From Allacma fusca (Eukaryota > Arthropoda > Collembola > Symphypleona > Sminthuridae): a stretch of DNA of 64,000 nt. The position numbers and the translations under genes are program-made. The stretch lies in the NCBI GenBank assembly GCA_947179485.1, contig OX359248.1, forward strand, positions 49,114,847-49,178,846. The letters run 5' to 3'. Numbering within the stretch: the stretch's first letter is position 1; every line of letters starts with the position of its first letter. Of this stretch, positions 9,910 to 52,152 are shown piece after piece. Under the pieces are notes generated by a model. That model was not told the DNA's origin, searched no databases, and saw only the letters and a program-made list of their open reading frames with translations.

Positions 9910-10123
9910 CTGGTGGTTTATCCTCACGATGAATATCATGCTTCGCATTGAGGATGGCCAGTGGGTGAGGACCACCTAAGCCAGTTAGTCCAAGGAGGGA
10001 AGCCGCGGAGGACGGTGGCAGAGGAGCTCCTGGTAATCCTGGATGTGGTAACATGGGGAGGGGTGGGTGAGCAGCAGCGGCGGCTGCTGCTGCTGGTCCT
10101 AGCTGCTGGGCATGCATTTGTTG
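9910..10123 (-). CDS. gro: groucho GP-domain exon (proline/alanine-rich)
   Basis: A 214-nt exon starting in phase 0 with QQMHAQQLGP and ending in phase 1 after a PP doublet (one G carried to the next exon). The acceptor is TTTATTGCAG. The donor is weak: CCAG followed by GTTGGA. The product has a run of eight alanines, then a proline/glycine/leucine-rich stretch (HPPLPMLPHPGLPG, ASLLGLTGLGG) and ends with charged IHREDKPP. This composition and the opening QQ-x-x-AQ motif match the start of the GP domain of TLE proteins, which is unstructured and mediates HDAC contact. A GTGAGG inside the exon, before the last few codons, could serve as an alternative donor. The next exon is not found in the 9.9 kb downstream. 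Read-through of the donor would add 15 residues before a TAG at 9863-9865. Confidence 0.92.
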
Positions 10124-13033: not shown

Positions 13034-13108
13034 CCCGATGATGGCATTCAATTCGGTCATCGTGACTTGCTTGGCTCGGTCCACTGCCGTCGCAACTTGT
13101 TGCTGATG
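13034..13108 (-). CDS. gro: groucho Q-domain exon HQQQV to NAIIG
   Basis: A 75-nt exon of 25 codons, phase 0 at both ends. It begins [15 protein letters not shown] and ends [10 protein letters not shown]. The acceptor is GTCTGTTCCCAG and the donor is GGG followed by GTGAGT. The AKQVT-ELN-IIG block is diagnostic for the end of the Groucho/TLE Q domain. In the family the protein continues with QQ plus a proline-rich GP region. Here two different exons, at 11108-11137 and 9910-10123, could follow, and both start with codons for QQ. Joining to either preserves the expected IIGQQ junction. Confidence 0.96.
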
Positions 13109-13871: not shown

Positions 13872-13934
13872 CTCTTGCGAGAGGAACGGCAGGATTTGGG
13901 CAATGATCGCATTGAGTCGTTTGGAAATCTCGGT
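13872..13934 (-). CDS. gro: groucho Q-domain exon TEISKRLN
   Basis: A 63-nt exon of 21 codons, phase 0 at both ends. It begins TEISKRLNAIIAQ and ends LPFLSQE. The acceptor is TTTTTTCCAG with a good pyrimidine run and the donor is GAG followed by GTGAGT. The sequence is closer to vertebrate TLE (TEIVKRLN... PFLSQE) than to Drosophila Groucho, in which this stretch ends in LQAD, as far as I recall. The segment supplies the second helix of the Q domain, with regularly spaced I/L residues typical of the tetramer core. Intron 13109-13871, only 763 bp, separates it from the next exon and contains a long ATT repeat. Confidence 0.96.
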
Positions 13935-37212: not shown

Positions 37213-37257
37213 CTGCTTATGCATCTCGACATTAAGGCCATAGGACATCTCGTAGTA
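37213..37257 (-). CDS. gro: groucho Q-domain exon YYEMSYGLNVEMHKQ
   Basis: A 45-nt exon encoding exactly 15 residues, YYEMSYGLNVEMHKQ, one of the most conserved strings of the Groucho/TLE Q domain. The acceptor is CCCCAACAG and the donor is CAG followed by GTAATG, which is somewhat weaker than the GTGAGT donors of its neighbours. Both ends are phase 0. Either 64-nt exon upstream (41331-41394 or 52089-52152) ends in phase 0 after QRHYVM and joins it in frame, giving the family-standard junction VM-YYEM. The next exon lies 23 kb away at 13872-13934, by far the longest internal intron seen here. The segment contributes to the Q-domain helical hairpin. Confidence 0.96.
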
Positions 37258-39574: not shown

Positions 39575-41330
39575 TATGAAGGAGAGGAACAACATGTAAA
39601 AAAATCCTCGTTTATCTATGCACACAAAACACACACGCTCACATATGGAGATGATGATGATAGGAGCAAACACATGGTGCTCAAGTTAACACTTTGGGAA
39701 GGAATAAAAAAAATTACTTTGTTTTACTGTACCCTACATTCTTGCCCTGAGTCTGTGTACATAATCCTTTTGGCACAAGGGTCTTAAGAACATTTGCAAA
39801 ATGAATTCCTCTTCATCTCCAATACTTGTCTTCATTTTGTGGAAGTTTGGATGTGCATAAGTTCATATATGAGGATTGTGAGTTCCCCTACTGTCACAAT
39901 GGTTTAAGTCCCGTCATAACATAGGGCATGTACATACGTACTTCTACAAGTTTTTCTCACATAGAAAATGTTCTCTATTTGTCATGATTTGCTATCCCCC
40001 ACAATTTCCTAAGAGCTAGTGTTCGAGAGCAGAGTTATTTTTCAACCTTTTTTTCCCCCTTCTGTCTCTCTCTCTCTCTCTGTTTCAAAAGCAATGGTCC
40101 AATTCCAGTTGGAAGGTTTAAAAGATGCGGAGTGTGTATTTAAATAATCGTCAAAAACACACCCAAAGCATAGCTAATTACATTACAATTGTCAGTTACA
40201 GAGGACGAAAACATTTCGGCTCGTTGCGGAAAAACCATCAAAACTATTGTAAGACTAGGAGATGATGTTCGAGCCAAGAAAGAAAAAAAATAGGTTGACA
40301 CTGCTCCTTGACTCATCATGAAAGGATGAGAGTACATGTGTAATCTCGGGCTTGTTCATCAACGTATTACTTTCTACATTGCATTGGTTTTGGCATGTAT
40401 TTAAATACTAGGGAAAGGAATAGAAGGGAAAAAAAAGAGTTTCCCGAATTGAAGGAACACATGTGGGATTTTTTTTTATCTTCTCCTCCAAATTCAAAAG
40501 TCATCTCAATCTCCCCACACGTCTCTTCAAATTGCATTTCCCTTGGAATGAACATGTTCATTTGGAAGATATTCCCTGGTATCTGACGATATGCTGTTCA
40601 CATTTTTTATTTCTTCACGGGATGTAATAGTGAAACCATAGAGAGTTTTTAAAATAACATAAATTGACAAAAGCTGGGAACAATTTCCGATGCGGAGACG
40701 CATCCCATGTACGTACAGCATAAATAAAGCAGAGGGGGGAAAAAAACATAAATGAGAAGAAGCGGGCCCACAAAAAGGGTAACTTAATCTAGAATGAATT
40801 GGCATATGGCAAAGCATTTGAGACAGTCAGCACTTTTTAAAATGTAAAAAAAAAATTCTGTATTATTTCCCTATGGCTGTATCTTATTTGTGTGTGTGTG
40901 TGTGTGTGTGTGTTTGTGTTACATATAAATAAGTGAATAGGAAATTCCTTCCGTTCTGTCACTTGCTGGTTTTGTGTCACACTCTTGGGAAAATCTAAGG
41001 TGAAGTTTATGGTTCATTTTTTTTGTCCCTTTTACTCAAAGGAAACATATTTTTGGTTTCAATGTATAGTTTCAAAATACTTTTAACCTCAACTTCATCC
41101 ATTAAGCTGACGATAGTCCTCCTTGTTTTTTTTTTTTTTGAAACTTTAACGAGAATGCAAATGTGTGAGTTTACTTTAAAAGAGTTAAAGAGCTGTGTAC
41201 ACACTGCGCAATGAGACATTGAGAGATATAAAATAATAGAAATTCTCAAGTAAGTACAGAAAGTACAGTTGTCGTTCCCGTCTCTCAAGCCATTTAAATT
41301 GTGTATAGAGTTTAACCATCAGTCACTCAC
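37258..41330 (-). other. gro: Intron between divergent exon A and the YYEMSYG exon (4073 bp)
   Basis: Bounded by GTGAGT at 41330 and CCAACAG at 37258. It contains a GA tract at 39541-39570, a TG tract at about 40889-40913 and AT-rich unique sequence. No third copy of the 64-nt exon was seen here. Confidence 0.85.
39541..39570. repeat. (AG)15 microsatellite
   Basis: An uninterrupted AG run in the intron between exon A and the YYEMSYG exon. Confidence 0.9.
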
Positions 41331-41394
41331 CATCACGTAATGTCTCTGCATCTCGGATTTTTCTTGCACCATTTTTTCACACTCGACTTTCAAG
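41331..41394 (-). CDS. gro: groucho Q-domain exon, version A (divergent member of duplicated pair)
   Basis: A 64-nt exon with acceptor TTTCACAG and donor ATG followed by GTGAGT. One base (C) completes a serine codon, then 21 codons start LKVECEKMVQEK and end MQRHYVM. It encodes the same Q-domain segment as 52089-52152, in the same phase, but differs at six positions: V for L, M for L, V for A, Q for S, S for I and M for I in the second EKxE block. Codons differ at many silent positions as well, so the duplication is not recent. The open frame, the intact splice sites and the conserved ends (LK-ECEK and QRHYVM) argue for a functional alternative exon, not a decayed copy. It sits next to the exon beginning YYEMSYG, separated by a 4.1-kb intron. 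Expression is inferred, not shown. Confidence 0.93.
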
Positions 41395-42109
41395 CTGTGA
41401 AATATGTAATATAATATAAATCTGAGGAAAAAATACATACGCGACAATTTCTCATTTCCTTTTTTCCTTTCACTTAGTCTGTCCTTTTTACAATCATTTC
41501 TATGTAAGTCGGAGTATCGATGCAGCTTATTTTTCCGATGCAAATGATCCTTCAAACTTGGATTCTTTGCTAAATATTTTTGCATAACTGGGAATCTTAA
41601 ACTTATTTATTTTCATCAGAATTTCCCGCCAAATTCTTGTATCTTATTACACCTCAAGACTCAAAGGATTTTTATGAGTCAAAGTCGACTCAAAAATATT
41701 TATTCCCAGGGGAAATTTTGAAAGATTGTTTTGAGAGGATTATTTCAATGCACTAAAAAATGTAAAAGCCATTTTATTTCCTATTATTTTTCCCGCCAAA
41801 TCTTTTGATTTGTTTTCTATGACCAGTGAAATAATTCTTGGAAGCATCACATTGAGCGGACAGGGTTAAGGGCACAATTACACATTACTCTTAATAATAG
41901 TATTATTATTACTTACATACGTTAATCTACATCAGACCCGTATATTAAAAATTAGGGAAATCTACTAAATATTAATTCTAACATCCACGCATAAAATACC
42001 GCATAAAATACAGGCATTAAATTGTTAAAAAAATAAAATCCAGTGGTAACTTTTCCCTATCCCTTTGAAATCTTCTATAATTTTTACAGGTAAGTACTTG
42101 ACTCTTGGT

Positions 42110-42740
42110 AAGTCACAGCCGAGCTTTAATAATAATTGATGAAATTGAATTCCCACCAGAGACTTTCCCTTTGAAAGGCTCATAATGTTGCAACCCCATC
42201 AAATTAGTAATTACACGATTAATTTAATTTACTACAAATTGTTATTATTCCATTAGTTGGTATTAGCCCGTACCTCCAGACATACACATATAATTATATG
42301 AGTAACAAGTAATTAGTATAGGGACGACGACGGAAGGGGAGAAAAAAAAATCCTTGAAGCCGTAAGATTACTTAATGCAGTTACTTCCCATAATTATTCA
42401 TACAACACATAGAAAATAAAATAATGTCACAAAATCAAAACATGGACAAGTCCCGAAGCGTGACGACTCCTCATAAAAATAAGGCTAATGGTCCTGCCCA
42501 TAATCAAAGAACAAGTGGACGGACTCTACTCCCCCTGAAAAGGCCGGAGAGTTGGAATTATCACGCGCACTTCCGTGCTTCCCCTTAATTAGGAGCCGTA
42601 TTACAAAACATTAATTATTTGCTTTTAACTCCAGACAATCATCACAATTTCAGCACTCTCCCTCCCCCAAAGCATGTCGTCATCGTCACTCCTTCCCCAG
42701 CCGTCCCACGCTATGGGTGCTAATTAAATTGCAAGGAGTT
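42110..42740. promoter_or_regulatory. AT-rich block with clustered homeodomain-type words (candidate enhancer)
   Basis: Many TAATTA, ATTAAT and TTAATTAGG words occur here (for example near 42210-42240, 42305, 42395, 42585 and 42610), mixed with less repetitive GC-containing sequence. There is no open frame and no microsatellite. It lies in the intron between the paired 64-nt exons. An enhancer role is inference from composition only. Confidence 0.2.
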
Positions 42741-44960
42741 TTTATAAGTACCGAGTCCCAGCATTCACTTGCTATACAAAAATCCTCCCTCCTTTATAAA
42801 AGCATTTTTTTTCCTATTTAAAAAAAAATCACAGTTCCATTATAAAAGATTCCATATCTTTGGCTTTTACATGCTTAACTTTTTAAACAAGCTAAATTAT
42901 ATCCAAGCTTTCCATTGACTTCAATGCATTTTTTTTTCTCCTGAATCAGGAGTCTGTCTGCACTTTTAAGTAAAATTTTACTTCTTTTATGGAGGAGGGA
43001 ATTTTGTACATGCAAATCAAGCTACATACATCTGTACTTGTACATTTAAAAAATAATGTTAGAGGATTGCGGACACACATTGTTGGTTTCCTTGAAAAGT
43101 GGAGCCCGCTCCTTGAACTCCTCGATCCGCCTTTGTGTGTGTGGTACAATTGCAAATAGGAAAATCACCGTGTGTGCGACAATCACAATAACGTGATCAA
43201 TAATTTACGAGACATTTACGGTGGTCAACCACGCGAATGACAATTTCCCCCCAAAATATTTCCTCAGCTTACAAAACCTCAAGGCTTGAGTACTACACGT
43301 CCTCCTATGTACCAACTACCACCACATTTCTATTTCAAACTTCATGTGGTGGTTACATATATTTACCCACAGCATAATATAGTCACCTCAGAGTCATACA
43401 TAAAAATGTGTCCGCATACAGACCCATAGATATATAGATATGCAGACACACACACACACACACACACACACATCCACATCCATGCCCCAAGAATATTTAT
43501 GACTCGAGAAAAAAAAGCAATATTCCAGTCGCCAATTCAATAAATCACTGAATTATTTTCCTTTCTAGACTAATAGTCACAGTTAAAAAAAATGGCGACG
43601 GAAATCGTCTGAGACTTACTCCAAATTCTATTTCTACAAGTATAAATCCCCCGTATGAATAAACTTTCTATGAGGTGCTTGTATTTCCACTGAACAGGGG
43701 ATTTGTTCGTGTGGCGTCCTTTAAAAAAGTATGACAATTGTATATGTCACTTGGAGCTTGTAATGTTAGAGTAAATAATTATAGGGTGGAGGGAGTATTT
43801 CTTAAGTATTTTTGACCCCATAGAGATGTTGCTGTTGTAAGGGGGCCCTTTATCACATATAGAGAGAGTAGACTGAACTATAAATTCCTCCACATAGAAC
43901 CTTGACCCTCTAACTGAATCAATTACACTCACAATTATTATGCCAATAAAATTCTCAGCTCAATTCCAGAAATAATAAAAAGGAGGAAAGAGGAAATCAG
44001 CTTCGAAACTTTCCCATGACAGGTGGCAGTTACGACAGAGCCATATTATTTTTGAAGGGATGTTCTTGTAGACAAGTTAAGGCCCCGAATTCACCAACTG
44101 GGGAAATATGGAGTGTCCACACAAGGTGAAATGTATTTTTAATGGACTCTACGTCGACGTGGATGCTTTACAGTAGAAATCTTTCTCCTAGATTCGTATC
44201 CAATGACCATTCCTCAAATCCAGTACTTTCCCCTTTCACAGTGTTCAACTTCCCTCATAATTTTCATTTTGAAGGGAAAGCTCAAGAATTACCATAAACT
44301 ATGGATTCAGGTCTCAATTACAGGGAAATTATAGGGAAATAAATTTATTTGTAAAATCTAGAATGTGTGTTAATTCTGAGAGCTCATATTATAATAAGAG
44401 AGGATTAACAACGCTGAAGTCTCAGCTTGCCCCATAATCTTACAATACATTCCAAATTGGAAAATGTGAAGGTAATTATATAACATTGAAATTATAAAGG
44501 TTGCACATGGCACGTCCCATTGGAGGGAATAAGGTTAAACATGACAATCAATGGATTTAATATTCATTTGAGTTCCTCAGGACTTAATGCACACGGACGG
44601 ATAGTGTACGTACATACATCAAATGGAGAGCTGGCTAAAGTGCAGGAGCACATAATTATAAATAGTGTAGTAATTACTTTCCCGAGTGAAATTAATATTC
44701 GAACATGACAATCAGAATGATTCCCAAGGGCTCCTGGGCTGGGCCAGAGTATCTACATCAGGAGGTTGTTTTGTGTTTGTGTGTGTGTGTGTGTGTGTGT
44801 GAGAAGAGAAGTGGATGGAAAACAAGTAGCAGTATTTGCCCAGCACTGCAGTCATTTCTATTCTCATGAGTAATTACAATAGCTGTTGAGACTCTACAAG
44901 GAAATAATGGACTCCGTCTTACTGCATTACTGCATCTCAGACAGGCATGATTGCAAGATT

Positions 44961-45052
44961 TACAGTGGGCCCTCTCTACATGGGACATGGGGGAGAAACT
45001 TTGGATTTTAAAGGAAGGTCTCTATTGTATGTAGAGATACTAGTGTACTGTA
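44961..45052. mobile_element. Short MITE-like element with TACAGT...ACTGTA ends
   Basis: The left end reads TACAGTGGGCCCTCTCTACA and the right end reads GTAGAGATACTAGTGTACTGTA, whose reverse complement resembles the left end. The interval is about 92 bp, flanked by or including TA. It looks like a nonautonomous Tc1/mariner or pogo-type element with no coding capacity. Confidence 0.4.
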
Positions 45053-45562
45053 CACCTATAGCTGGGCATACTATATGTACGTCCCTCGTATGTATCTACT
45101 TGTATTGAGACGCTCATACATATATATATATGTAAAACCCAATTTTTTCCCTCTCATAGGTAATAATTATTGTAGGTATGGTGTAAAGACGGTGAGGCTC
45201 TGGGTTCGTGACATTGTACAAGTCCAGTGTTTATAGTGTGTACAGGAGGAAATGTAATATAGGAAGGGAGGGATAGAGGGTCCGTGGATGGATTGATGGT
45301 TGGATCATGATGGCGTGCTTCCTGATTACCATTATTAATGCACGCCAAATAAACGTACGGAATGAGGGAATGGATCGGCCATCAGTCAAGGAGCTGTAGC
45401 TACTATGGGGTCAGGCCCCTCTTAGCCTCTCTCCTTCCACCATATAAATCAATTCCAATTCATTATTAAGGCAACCACATAACCATGATCCATCTTCTGA
45501 CATGACAAATCCTGATTGCATTTATTCTCCAACCGGAATAATTATTATCCTCCAACTATTCA

Positions 45563-45591
45563 ACACACACACACACACACACACACACACA
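45563..45591. repeat. (CA)n microsatellite
   Basis: About 14 CA units. Confidence 0.88.
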
Positions 45592-48500
45592 TTCCCAATA
45601 TGTAATTACATATGTACTGGCATGCGAGCCGAATATCCCCCAAGACACATTGCAAAAACAACTGATTTCAAGAGAGTGCTCCCCACACTAAAAAAAACTC
45701 CCATGCTCCAAGTATCTAATCTAAAGCTACATTTTTTCTCAATAGTACATATCTATAAGGCGGGAGAGGAAATTAAGAAAAATCCCTACAGTGCACTCCA
45801 ACTAACAACAGTGTACTAACAACAACCCCCTGAAACCACCAAATTTGAAGGATCTCTAAAAGAAATAATAATTCGCTACTACAATAACGGAGGACTTAAG
45901 GATAAAATTTAGCACTGCAGTCTATGGGGATGTGTCCAGTTATTTTTGAACCCCTTCGGAAAACAAGCTCTTCCCAGGGGCAGCCTCCCCTGGTGAGAGC
46001 ACACTGTAAATAGATTTTTCTATATACAGATACATATGTAGATACGCCTGTGAAAAAAAAATGTAGACACCTCCAGTACATATTTGACGGAGAAGATGGA
46101 GGATTAAGTGAGGAAGAGAGGAGAGCATTAGAGCATGATAATCGACGCAATAAAAGCATGTTTAAATCCCCAGCGTTATTATGTGTTGTGGTGTGTGTGG
46201 TTCGTGATGGCAAAATCATGACTTGGGGAATCCGAGCTTGTCATGTGTGAAATCTTTATAGATGAATCGCTTTTTCCAAGGGATTTCATCCTCACTAACT
46301 CAACTCCGCTCTGAGCGTGCATAAGTAGATGGATGAAAACTTTTACAGGGAGTGAGAAAGATTCTCACATGTGTGTGTATGTGTATGTGTGTGTGTGTGT
46401 TTTATGTATACATATGTAACTGCTGTATAGATAGCTGTAAGTACATCCATTTCATACAGGTCTTTTACATTGAGCGCCGCTGGAGTTCAGAAAAAAGTCA
46501 AGTGCTAACGATGATCCGTACTCCGTTGGAAGACAAACCTCATTGTGCGCATTAGTTGTTCACATCTTGACGTGGGATCTTATCGGGAAAGACTCAACTT
46601 GTGAGGACTAAACAACTTACGGGAGATCATTTCCAAGGAGAGAGAGAGATATCAGAAGGGAAGGGAGGGGACCACCCTCCATGCTTTGATCATACAACGG
46701 CTAATCTTCTCTTTCCTTATGCCTCAAGCCAGTCTCAATCTCCTTCCTTTACATATCCATTCCATACATTACACATGGATAAGGACAGCCTTCCAAGTGA
46801 GAACCTATTTATAAACATGTTTATCATCTCTCGTATCTGTAGCAATCGCTTTTACGAAAGCACGATTATTACAAGTTCCTACAGTCGACTCACAATCCTC
46901 ACAGCTCTCTCCCTCTCTCTCTCTATCTCTCAATCGTGCTCTTATAAGGATGAAAATTATCTTCAACGGAAAAGGAATTATTTCATAGGGAATATTTCAA
47001 CTCCAGCAAAACTTCTTTTACAAGGAAGTCTCGGACAGTCAAAGGATCCTGTACAAATCCAGAGCAGTGTTCATTTTCGACAGCAAAAGAGCAGGTTCGA
47101 ATTTAAGGTATAGATACTGTAAGACCCGTTGACCACAATGCAATTTTTTATCTTGACAAGAGCAAGTGTCTCTGAAAATAGTTAAATTTAGGCCTTGTTG
47201 AGAGTGCTTATAGCGAGTCGCTCCCTGTAAACACATGACGAGGGCTAGGGCTAATACTCCACAACCATGACAAAAGAGAAAGAAACCAGAGCTAATGGTT
47301 CGTGCTTGTCACAATCCTTGCACCGTCACAGCTTTTGTGTACAATTGATCCGTTCAAAGTCACTCCGGATTTTTATCAGGACAGTCTCATTCCAACATTT
47401 TTTTATTTTATTTGTGTCATGCTCCTTATATTTTATTAAATGAGACGATGTGCTCAGCATTCCCAGCATAGGGATATATAATTACCAGAAAAAATCAACT
47501 CAATGTCAATTTAGCCTAACTCCAGCTTACAAAACAGTCTCTCGGCAAGGAATTACTCCCAGACATTCCAACTCAATAGTTAATAATGGACGATTAGCCT
47601 TTTTGGTCCTCATATAAAATATCTACATTGACAGTGAAGAGTTTATATGTGTTACAGTATTGTAATGAATTCCTAATTTAGGAGTAGAATGCATACACAT
47701 GTAGATATGTATGTATGTATGTAGATCAAGAGGGGAAAAAAACTATTCAGGATTTCCTCATAGTCTGCACACACAATGCTCACCACCCCACTGGTTTATT
47801 ATTCTTGGGAGTCCTTTGTTATGGCTCCAGAGAAATGTGAGGATGTAAAGTAAGTCGTTCCAAATCCCGACAAAAAATCCTCATTCATCTCTCAAGACTC
47901 AGTTCAGAGGGATTAACTTGTTTGTGTATTTGTTAGTGTATGTGTGTGTGTGATTGTGTGTATGTGGAGGTGTTTAGTTTAGACTACGTACAATGATTTT
48001 TTCTCTCGCCCATTTACTCCTTTCTCCCCTTTCCCACTGTTTTCAATGCCAGGGAGGATTTTTTTACGAGGAACTACAAACACATAATTACATATATACA
48101 TAGCTCCATTCAAATTTTAATACAATGACTTGAAAGTGATCAAATGGGGAACTTGATATGAGAAACTAAAAAGAGTTCTTAAGAGGGGTGGAATAACCCC
48201 GAAACTTTCCCAGGGAGAGAAACCAACCCATAATGAGATTTTATACACGGAGGACTGTAACGTACAACCCAAGAGGAAAACTATACTGGAGTTACATTGT
48301 GTATGATATGGTGAAAGTGACAGAGGGAAATCTAGAGAGTAGAGCCTGGTTATGAGAGCCCCTTTTTGTTTAAAAAAAAAAGGGTTTTTCATCCATTCAA
48401 AATTAATTCCTTACATTCCTGCTCCCTACAATGTTAATTTACTCACTGCATACAGACGTGTAATTATGTGTCTACATATATGCAAAACACTGGGGTCTAT

Positions 48501-50588
48501 TCCCTGATGCTCGTCTCATAAGAGATCACGTTGTGAGAGAAATTTCTCTACGGGAGAAAAACTTTAGACACAATCCCCTTTACCGCAATGTTAATTTTCC
48601 TGCTTTCTATTCCTGTAGCTACAGTCCACTGCTTTTGTATCAGAGTCCGTTCTTTTCTTTAGGGAGAGAGAGGAAATTTTTTTCTAGAGGGACAAAATCA
48701 TTTCAGGATGTTCCTTCAAATAATGGAGCGTTAATTTGTGTTTGTAGGAGTGGAAGATAGGATTTTGAGAAATTCTGGGGAATTCCAGGGTGCCTTGAAT
48801 AGAGACAGTTTACTGCACTTGACTGTATCTATATATGAGGAACGTGGAGGGAGACAAATGGGGAAAGGAGCGCTTGTTGCGGAAGGAGTCCAACAGAGCG
48901 GAGGAAAGAGCATATTTTTTTTCTGAGGGAGCTATCTAAAAAAAAAGAGTGAAGGGAAGAGAGCAGAGGACGAAATGGAAATGTTCCTTCCTATGGTGCA
49001 AGTGGAGCGGAACAAAGTTGAAAAAATTTCAATACATTATTTCCCATTTCCCAGCTCTACCCTGGCACACACACACATCCCATCATATTATAGGACTCAG
49101 TAGGTATATCTATAAGTGAGTGCTGCAACAACAATAGCTACTTTCCATCCCCACAGTTATTGTTTGAAAGACCAGTTTTGTTTCATTTGCCTCGTTTTTT
49201 TTTGAGATATAGATGCACACAGCCCTCCCTGCAAAACACTTGCAAAAAGGAATTTCATTCAATGTACATACACAGTAGTGAACTCTCTCTATAAAAGTAT
49301 CCCCAAAAATTCAGACAAAAAATACCCTTTCAAGCTTATAGTACAACACTCAAAAATAAACATTTACTATTGAATGGAAAGGCACTCCAAATTTTTTGAA
49401 TACAAACAAAAAGCTGGTAGAACCTCAAAGGGCGGTGGCTGTAGTTAGAATGTCCTGTAACTTTCTCTCCTTTCCCCTTACCATATAACTCCTAGACTTT
49501 ATCTCAAAGTAAATACAATTTTTTGCAATTATATACAAACCACACTGTAGCCCTAGCCTATGTACGTGCATACATGTAATTGTAAACTGGAGATTGCGTC
49601 CGTAATAAATTTAGCATATATTCCGCAGTCCTTTCTCCCTGAGTCCTCCATCTTGCCTTGTCTTGTGTAAGTACCTCTGTATGTATTTTGATTTACTATA
49701 AGTACAATAGATGTGTCTAGATATGTAGATACGTATATGGGAATTTATAGGAGGCCGTATAGAGCCGCCGTCGGAGAAAGAACAAGGGAAACCACGGGGC
49801 CACCGCTGATCTTCCAGGAAGCATGTACGTATGTATGTATGTAGATACTAGCCCATATGTACATACAAGGATAACTTCAAGTAGTGGGGACGTAATTCTC
49901 TGTACACACATAATTATATAGGGGTATCCAACATGACTTCCCATACGTTGGATATTACCTACAAAATACTTTTACAGAGATAAATGGACTTGGTATTAGA
50001 CTTTTGGAAAAGTTCCAAACAGCCCACTCGTGTTGCTTGTAGGAGATGATTACATATCTACTTTTCTTACATGTACACAATTTCCTCTGCTTTCTCCTTT
50101 TTTTTTAAATATCTTCCCTCATGACTGCATAGTATATGTGTGTGCAGGGCTCGGCTGGGAATTCTCATGTTCTGGAGATATTCATTGCTCCGTATGCATT
50201 CCCATAACTTTAATGGAATTATGAGCATAGGACTTTATGTGTGTAGGACTACTGTGTCCCCATTACAGAGGGACCATGTATTCATTTATGTCAAAGTATA
50301 TCTATAGAGTTTCCTTATGCAGGACTGTTTATGTGTGTCTACTTATGTAAGAATTGAGTATAAGGGGACTCATGCATGGGTTTAAGAAATGTGGGATGTG
50401 AGTCTATGTAGGAACTATTTCATATAGTCTGCGGGGTCTGGAGGGACGGATGAGTTATTAAAACTTGTTCACGAGTAATTCAGCAAATTATTCGCAGAGC
50501 TTTTAAAGCGTCTCCCACTTTTTATTTATATGACCACAGCCCGTTTCATCACACGAGAGGAATTAAGAGGAAGCCGTGAAGGAGCTAG

Positions 50589-50595
<7 letters not shown>

Positions 50596-50624
<29 letters not shown>
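50596..50624. repeat. (GA)n microsatellite
   Basis: About 14 GA units, 1.5 kb downstream (transcript sense) of exon B. Confidence 0.88.
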
Positions 50625-50627
<3 letters not shown>

Positions 50628-52088
50628 AGAGGGGGGAAAGCTGTGGGGAAAAAAGCGAAACAGAAATTAAGAGATGAGAAATAGGGGGACGTGTATAAAT
50701 TCCACCTAGGATCTTCCATATAATTATACCGGCACACTGTGCACGGACAGGGACTTATAGCTGTATCTATCTATCCATAAGGAGGGGAAATAACACCGAG
50801 GGAAAGAGAGTGGAAGAGGAAAGAGAGGAGCAATTGTGGTAGGGAAAGCTCGTATAAATATAAATCTCCTTGGATGGTAATTTGCACTTGGAAACCACTT
50901 GGAATCCCTCTCATCTCATTAGCTCCCGAGACTCTCCACACATCTCTAACTATATAGGTAGGTACAGTAGTGACTTTCATGGGCTTCCCTTCCCTATTCA
51001 CACACATATACACACACAAACACACACAAACACACACTACTACACACATATTACGCAAACACATACACACACTTTTATACGTCCGCCCTCCATCTTAAAC
51101 AACATGGGGAAAGGAAGTAACTTTTAAAAGTCATTACTTATCCTGTATAAATGCAAAGACTTTCCCTTCCCAAATAGTCCCAACTCCATGGGATTGCCTG
51201 GGAAAAATCCTATAATTATATGCTTGCATGTTTAGCTCCAATTGTGTTTTTTAAAACAGGATTAATATCACACTTTTTTCCCCTCCTTCACACACTACTC
51301 CCACAATTGTTTCCGTAATTTCTCACAGGACAAGACACATATACATACCTCAATTATACATTTTAAGTAGTATTTACAATAAGCATTCAAATCATTAAGA
51401 GTAGTCAAAGCATTATTGTTTACATCTAGTATTAGTACAAGGTAAAAATTAATTTACACACAATGACGCCACCAAATGATGCACAATTGTAATAAAATAT
51501 TTTCCTGGGTTTCGTGGGTCAAATCCTAAAGGGAATTTGAATAAATTTGTCCTCAAATTTTGTTGAATGTAGTCTCTGTAGTGTCAACATGTCAATTGCA
51601 ATGGTGTTGAAGGTGATGTGTTAGAAATTACAGTTTTTTTTGTAAGATGAAATGTTTCTAATATAAAAAAAGAACTTCCATGCAAATAAAGTACTAGAGA
51701 TATGTACTCACTAGAAAATTCTACTGATCATGCTAAAATGATCGCATATCTACTGATAAATTGTAAAAGAACAAAAATAGTAGTAACTCTGGCAGGGGAA
51801 AAGCTCACAATATATGTCTCAACAGACACACTAAAAAGACACTATTAGCATAGCGGGATTTCAGCACAGATGAGACAGTGCAGAGTGAGAGGAGGGATTG
51901 ATGAGAGATCTGCAGACGGACCCTAGGCCCCACTACACATACATAGGACAGGACTGAGGCAGAGCCAGTAATAATAAGTGAGAGCACATAAAAAGAAAAG
52001 CATGAAGGAGAGGGCGGACGGAACAAGAGTGCTAAAAGTGATTTATACAAAAAAAAAGAGAAAAAGAAAGAGATGAAGATAAACTCAC

Positions 52089-52152
52089 CATTACATAATG
52101 ACGTTGAATCTCAATCTTTTCGCTAGCCAATTTCTCGCACTCTAACTTCAAA
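52089..52152 (-). CDS. gro: groucho Q-domain exon, version B (canonical-like member of duplicated pair)
   Basis: A 64-nt exon. The acceptor is TTTACAG at the 5' end and the donor is ATG followed by GTGAGT. It opens with one base (T) that completes a serine codon begun in the previous exon, then gives 21 codons starting LKLECEKLASEK and ending QRHYVM. From memory this differs from vertebrate TLE proteins at only about two positions, so it is the conventional version of the segment. It belongs to the first helix of the Q domain, a leucine-rich coiled coil that drives tetramerisation. A second exon of the same length and phase lies 10.7 kb downstream at 41331-41394 (15 of 21 residues identical), so this one is probably used alternatively. 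The polypyrimidine tract is weak. The preceding coding exon is outside the window. Confidence 0.93.

Follow-up and report, generated by a model that had tools for sequence, protein, structure and literature searches.

A duplicated, frame-locked Q-domain exon in a groucho gene of Allacma fusca, probably spliced in a mutually exclusive manner

The window analysed here, a stretch of 64,000 nucleotides (nt) from contig OX359248.1 of Allacma fusca (C12:49114847-49178846), holds the 5' half of a groucho gene termed gro2, which lies on the minus strand and contributes exons 3B, 3A, 4, 5, 6 and 7 to the window. Exons 3B and 3A are two versions of the same Q-domain exon. This duplicated, frame-locked exon is real, and it is likely, judging from the sequence, that the two copies are spliced in a mutually exclusive manner to give two Groucho isoforms. 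An initial annotation had claimed a duplicated exon of which one or the other copy is used; the duplication stands, and is now supplied with its anatomy, frame logic and signs of selection, whilst exclusive use in transcripts is a prediction. The exons concerned are as follows, in window coordinates unless the contig is given.

C12:49219075-49219131, minus strand, past the right window end: gro2 exon 1, the start-codon exon (MYPTAM...), located by pattern match
C12:49215043-49215140 (window coordinate 100197-100294), minus strand, past the right window end: gro2 exon 2, 48 kb upstream of the 3B/3A region
52089..52152, minus strand: gro2 exon 3B, 64 nt, phase 2 in and 0 out, T + LKLECEKLASEKIEIQRHYVM
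41395..52088, minus strand: intron between 3B and 3A, 10,694 nt
41331..41394, minus strand: gro2 exon 3A, 64 nt, phase 2 in and 0 out, C + LKVECEKMVQEKSEMQRHYVM
37213..37257, minus strand: gro2 exon 4, 45 nt, the common downstream exon, YYEMSYGLNVEMHKQ
13872..13934, minus strand: gro2 exon 5, 63 nt, TEISKRLNAIIAQILPFLSQE
13034..13108, minus strand: gro2 exon 6, 75 nt, the final Q-domain exon
9910..10123, minus strand: gro2 exon 7, QQMHAQQLGP...REDKPP, with an uncertain donor (GTTGGA)

Both 3B and 3A are preceded by an acceptor AG and followed by GTGAGT, and they have the same length, the same phase and consensus splice sites. The two minus-strand 64-nt exons had been placed at 52089-52152 and 41331-41394 by the initial annotation, with the same phase and GTGAGT, and the sequence at these coordinates agrees; its count of 15/21 identical residues was obtained again on recounting, and 42/64 bases are identical (22/64 differ). 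Both exons lie in phase between exon 2 and exon 4 of gro2 and are adjacent homologous exons. The exon 1 pattern has one match upstream of exon 2; exon 1 itself is missed by the fly Groucho query. The WD40 exons of gro2 lie past the left window end, the last of them open to VYEVIY-stop, and the two largest have 92% identity to fly Groucho, giving the gene the C-terminal WD40 part of the Groucho/TLE corepressors. With its start-codon exon present and its WD40 exons open to the stop, gro2 is apparently intact. Around the 3A acceptor, a second AG (CCTCAG) is found at window 41395-41421, 27 nt upstream, the use of which would add nine in-frame, stop-free codons, and an open frame of 95 codons (window 41319-41606, minus strand) crosses the acceptor into the upstream intron.

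The frame logic is simple. Exon 2 ends ...CAC AA, in phase 2, and the first base of the following exon, T in 3B or C in 3A, completes AA_ to specify Asn either way. Since the exon length of 64 is no multiple of three, joint use or joint skipping shifts the frame. When the exons were joined in silico, the B-only and A-only forms both remained open through exon 7, whereas the B+A join meets a stop at codon 79 and the join with neither exon meets one at codon 105, both premature stops falling before exon 7 with its uncertain donor. Only the B-alone and A-alone joins stay open, and a full-length protein therefore needs exactly one of the two. Mutually exclusive exons do not always have this property, that joint use or joint skipping disrupts the protein, and the in-silico joins show it here.

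The similarity of 3A and 3B greatly exceeds chance. When the 263,847 bp surrounding the locus were scanned for AG, an open stretch of 1+63 nt and GT, the scores were 99.6 for the single counterpart exon of a second groucho gene, gro1 (described below), 94.6 for B and 92.2 for A, against 20.2 for the runner-up; the five reference sequences were the three exons themselves together with the fly and human forms, which inflates the top three scores. The runner-up reaches 35.8 when the splice-site condition is lifted, and the maxima over three random sequences from a first-order Markov model are 11.4 with splice sites and 33.6 without. The fly protein alone, searched against the window, finds A with an expect value (E) of 7.8e-7 and B with an E of 4.0e-6. 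Across the whole genome (392.7 Mb), a canonical-like query of 21 residues, searched at the protein level, matched three places, namely A, B and the gro1 exon, and the fly protein returned the three same places for the matching part of the query. The fly-protein E-values and the scan scores lead to rejection of exon A as a chance open frame. An arrangement of two nested genes is likewise rejected, as the fly query detects exons 2 and 4-6 once per gene.

Both exons look old and under selection, because synonymous sites are saturated in all three pairwise comparisons while the protein has been retained. Synonymous (pS) and non-synonymous (pN) divergence are 1.10 and 0.19 for A-B, 0.89 and 0.13 for A-gro1 (47/64 bases, 16/21 residues) and 1.31 and 0.10 for B-gro1 (44/64 bases, 18/21 residues). 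In a simulation of 21 random base changes, at least 15/21 residues without a stop were kept in 1/200,000 cases starting from B and in 0/200,000 starting from A. The flanking introns of A and B (1.5 kb per side, compared by blastn) align over essentially the exon only, the best A-B match beyond it being 34 nt with an E of 0.027, and the duplication is therefore not recent; a recent tandem duplication is rejected on the grounds that these flanks are unrelated. In the same blastn comparison the exon aligns for A-B and for A-gro1, and no exon match is returned for B against gro1.

This retention bears on the possibility that one copy, most likely 3A, is decayed or cryptic and rarely or never used, or that it is kept as a poison exon that lowers gro2 output. 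Such a fate would fit the greater divergence of A (16/21 to human TLE1 against 19/21 for B) and the stop at codon 79 that follows joint inclusion of B and A. However, A retains its frame, splice sites and phase, with 15/21 residues of B and 16/21 of gro1 despite saturated synonymous change, and a poison exon has no need to preserve protein sequence in a frame that is translated only under exclusive use. This explanation is considered unlikely. Less probable again is the use of separate promoters, whereby a start within the 10.7-kb intron upstream of A would give a Groucho with another N-terminus joined to A. The frame through A does stay open over some 70 codons before the acceptor, but an open stretch of 95 codons is plausible by chance in AT-rich DNA (an estimate rather than a computed value), and the phase-2 acceptor retained by A matches exon 2 and yields the same Asn. 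Furthermore, the fly Groucho query finds gro2 exon 2 once only in the 264-kb region, although that query misses exon 1 and the 10.7-kb intron was unscanned for a start exon. An assembly artefact, or the collapse of two haplotypes or genes into one locus, to which the second groucho gene nearby might point, is largely refuted and scarcely credible, as A and B differ at 22/64 bases, have unrelated flanks and are separated by 10.7 kb within a single 58.8-Mb contig, no other gro2 exon detectable by the fly query is doubled in the region, and gro1 has its own exon set on the opposite strand.

Mutually exclusive use of 3A and 3B would alter a defined part of the protein. The exon stretch had been assigned to a helix of the Q domain, and this is borne out by the B form of gro2 exons 2-6, which when joined match the human TLE1 Q-domain structures 4om3_A (E 5.7e-60) and 4om2_A (E 9.7e-60) and so establish Q-domain homology to the Groucho/TLE corepressors for that form. 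The Q domain serves in TCF binding and tetramer formation according to a review (PMC7458405). In the 21 residues, identity to human TLE1 is 20 for gro1, 19 for B and 16 for A, compared with 18 between TLE1 and fly; the human row used agrees with the chain of the TLE1 structure. Judged on these residues, A is more diverged from TLE1 than the fly sequence is, and B less.

A register test based on hydrophobicity only gave one shared best heptad register for all five sequences, in which fly Leu38 shares its d line with residues 1, 8 and 15 of the exon; Leu38 is one of two residues altered in the non-oligomerising L38D,L87D protein (PMC4148212). Six exon positions distinguish A from B, namely 3 (f), 8 (d), 9 (e), 10 (f), 13 (b) and 15 (d), the residues typical of A including V3, M8, V9, Q10 and S13. 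The two d-position changes are Leu/Met and Ile/Met, the charged residues are all unchanged, and the changes are mild. We infer that the isoforms may differ in oligomerisation or partner preference. A stronger proposal, that the swap is an oligomerisation code in which A and B isoforms, through their unlike d-position residues in the first helix, prefer their own kind or form tetramers of unlike stability, is speculative and rather improbable; if it were true, splicing and not modification would set the repression strength of Groucho from tissue to tissue. In the fly, targets vary in their requirement for Q-domain oligomerisation (PMC4148212).

The sequence around the two exons offers candidates for how the choice between them could be made, among them the following element.

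52043..52082, minus strand: candidate splicing control element, a pyrimidine-rich tract (85% C+T, 68% T) that closely follows the 3B donor

At +7 to +46 past the donor, the C+T content of 0.85 at B is the highest of 12 donors, the next being 0.72 (gro2 exon 2), with 0.47 at A, and 1.1% of 40-mers sampled from the minus strand of the gro2 locus reach 0.85. The acceptor pyrimidine content is low for both exons (B 0.61, A 0.65); ten other acceptors range from 0.57 to 0.91, with one lower than B and one equal to A. In a scan for splice-factor motifs, made with no chance comparison, one TGCATG was found, 405 nt past B, and the motif is absent within 500 nt of A.

The course of events may be pictured as an old tandem duplication of a 64-nt Q-domain exon within gro2, after which transcripts with both exons or neither would shift frame, stop early and presumably be removed by nonsense-mediated decay. 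Splicing regulators probably choose between the copies, acting on the weak pyrimidine tracts at both acceptors and on the U/C-rich tract that follows the 3B donor alone, and our best guess is that B would be the default exon with a regulated switch to A. The product would be two Groucho isoforms differing in six residues of the first Q-domain helix, one near-canonical (3B) and one diverged (3A), and the difference would tune coiled-coil packing or partner binding and not destroy either.

Several points weigh against this account. The in-silico join of gro2 runs as far as exon 7, and the further exons seen between there and the WD40 part lie outside it, which limits the case for a fully intact gene. 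In some mutually exclusive exons the choice is made by RNA pairing, in which selector sequences compete for a docking site; among the 25 longest of 400 pairs of inverted repeats in the introns, only simple-repeat arms were present, and no docking-site structure was found. The clustering of two of the six changes on the d line has a probability of about 0.18 (hypergeometric sum by hand) and is not significant. Neither steric exclusion, which operates below 50 bp from donor to branch point (PMC5740500), nor a mismatch of U2 and U12 sites applies to exons 10.7 kb apart with ordinary GT-AG sites, and with these routes ruled out exclusivity hangs on frame and decay together with regulators. In one compared gene set, multiple reads joining both exons were present in 18/20 frame-incompatible clusters (PMC5740500), from which it follows that exclusivity can be imposed after splicing.

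The second groucho gene, gro1, which did not feature in the initial annotation, lies outside the window on the plus strand at C12:49009061-49069697. Its exons could be followed all the way, MYP start through VYEVIY, with those up to exon 6 joined, and the gene is apparently complete. It is arranged tail-to-tail with gro2 (about 49078.5-49219.1 kb, minus strand), the two being about 9 kb apart. The exon that corresponds to 3B and 3A is listed here.

Within C12:49009061-49069697, plus strand: gro1 counterpart exon, single copy, LKLECEKLATEKTEMQRHYVM

The 263,847-bp scan turned up no further copy of the Q-domain exon for gro1, and the doubling is seen in gro2 only. Between gro1 and gro2, pS is 1.00, 0.64, 0.47 and 0.75 in exons 4, 5, 6 and one WD40 exon respectively; with about 10 synonymous sites in the swapped exon, these values do not rank the exon and gene duplications in time.

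The lineage of the DNA was approached through mitochondrial sequences. The genome has 15 matches in a COI search, and reading through TGA gives five of these a 511-codon frame. One of these full-length frames is on contig C91 and four are inside large contigs (C12:58139718, C12:57617038, C5:4638701 and C8:22971351), these four being recent nuclear mitochondrial copies or assembly joins. At one of the four, the order runs I, Q(-), M, nad2, Y(-), W, C(-), cox1, L(UUR), cox2, K, atp8, atp6, with protein genes named by eye and eight tRNAs found in both ARAGORN mitochondrial modes; three more, found in one mode, were excluded, and the bacterial mode found none. Relative to the ancestral order, Tyr has moved, and the interval from Lys to atp8 yielded no Asp. 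A Leu(UUR) flanked by cox1 and cox2 is a pancrustacean mark, and copepod mitochondrial gene orders are strongly rearranged. The mitochondrial order says pancrustacean and gives no finer placement, and the earlier reference to "related copepods" is accordingly not supported.

Mutually exclusive exons that arise by duplication are well known, with arthropod Mhc and Dscam reportedly among the comparison cases, and the Groucho case would add to them. The likeness to the mutually exclusive exons from tandem duplication in human catalogues (PMC5740500, PMC9741552) lies in neighbouring homologous exons of equal length and phase whose joint use breaks the frame; 377 (60%) of the human clusters contain exons of a length not divisible by three (PMC5740500). 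The difference is that the gene here is a general corepressor, Groucho being common to Wnt, Notch and other pathways, and the main texts of both catalogues have 0 occurrences of 'TLE' and 'groucho'. No report of an exon exchange at this Groucho/TLE site was found in the open-access library searched, judged mostly by titles and abstract openings, which agrees with the original statement that no such swap had been described. The nearest precedent met is human TLE4-T, in which regulated splicing also alters the Q domain of a Groucho-family protein: its 39-nt in-frame cassette lies near the C-terminal end of the domain, the isoform is more strongly repressive, and neither mouse nor more distant lineages have the exon (PMC2762042). 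Unlike 3A and 3B, however, the TLE4-T exon is an inserted cassette, neither a duplicated exon nor an exchange. A swap within the oligomerisation helix would amount to a natural experiment, in which six residues vary and the rest is constant, and would show the effect of assembly tuning on repression. At the level of genes, invertebrates are said to have a single Groucho/TLE member (PMC8651982), and a sea-louse transcript table has rows for GROUCHO1 and GROUCHO2 (PMC4881433). The pair gro1 and gro2 resembles the sea-louse entries and vertebrate TLE1-4 in providing several groucho products, but in contrast to the gene duplication of TLE1-4, the exon swap inside gro2 would add diversity as well.

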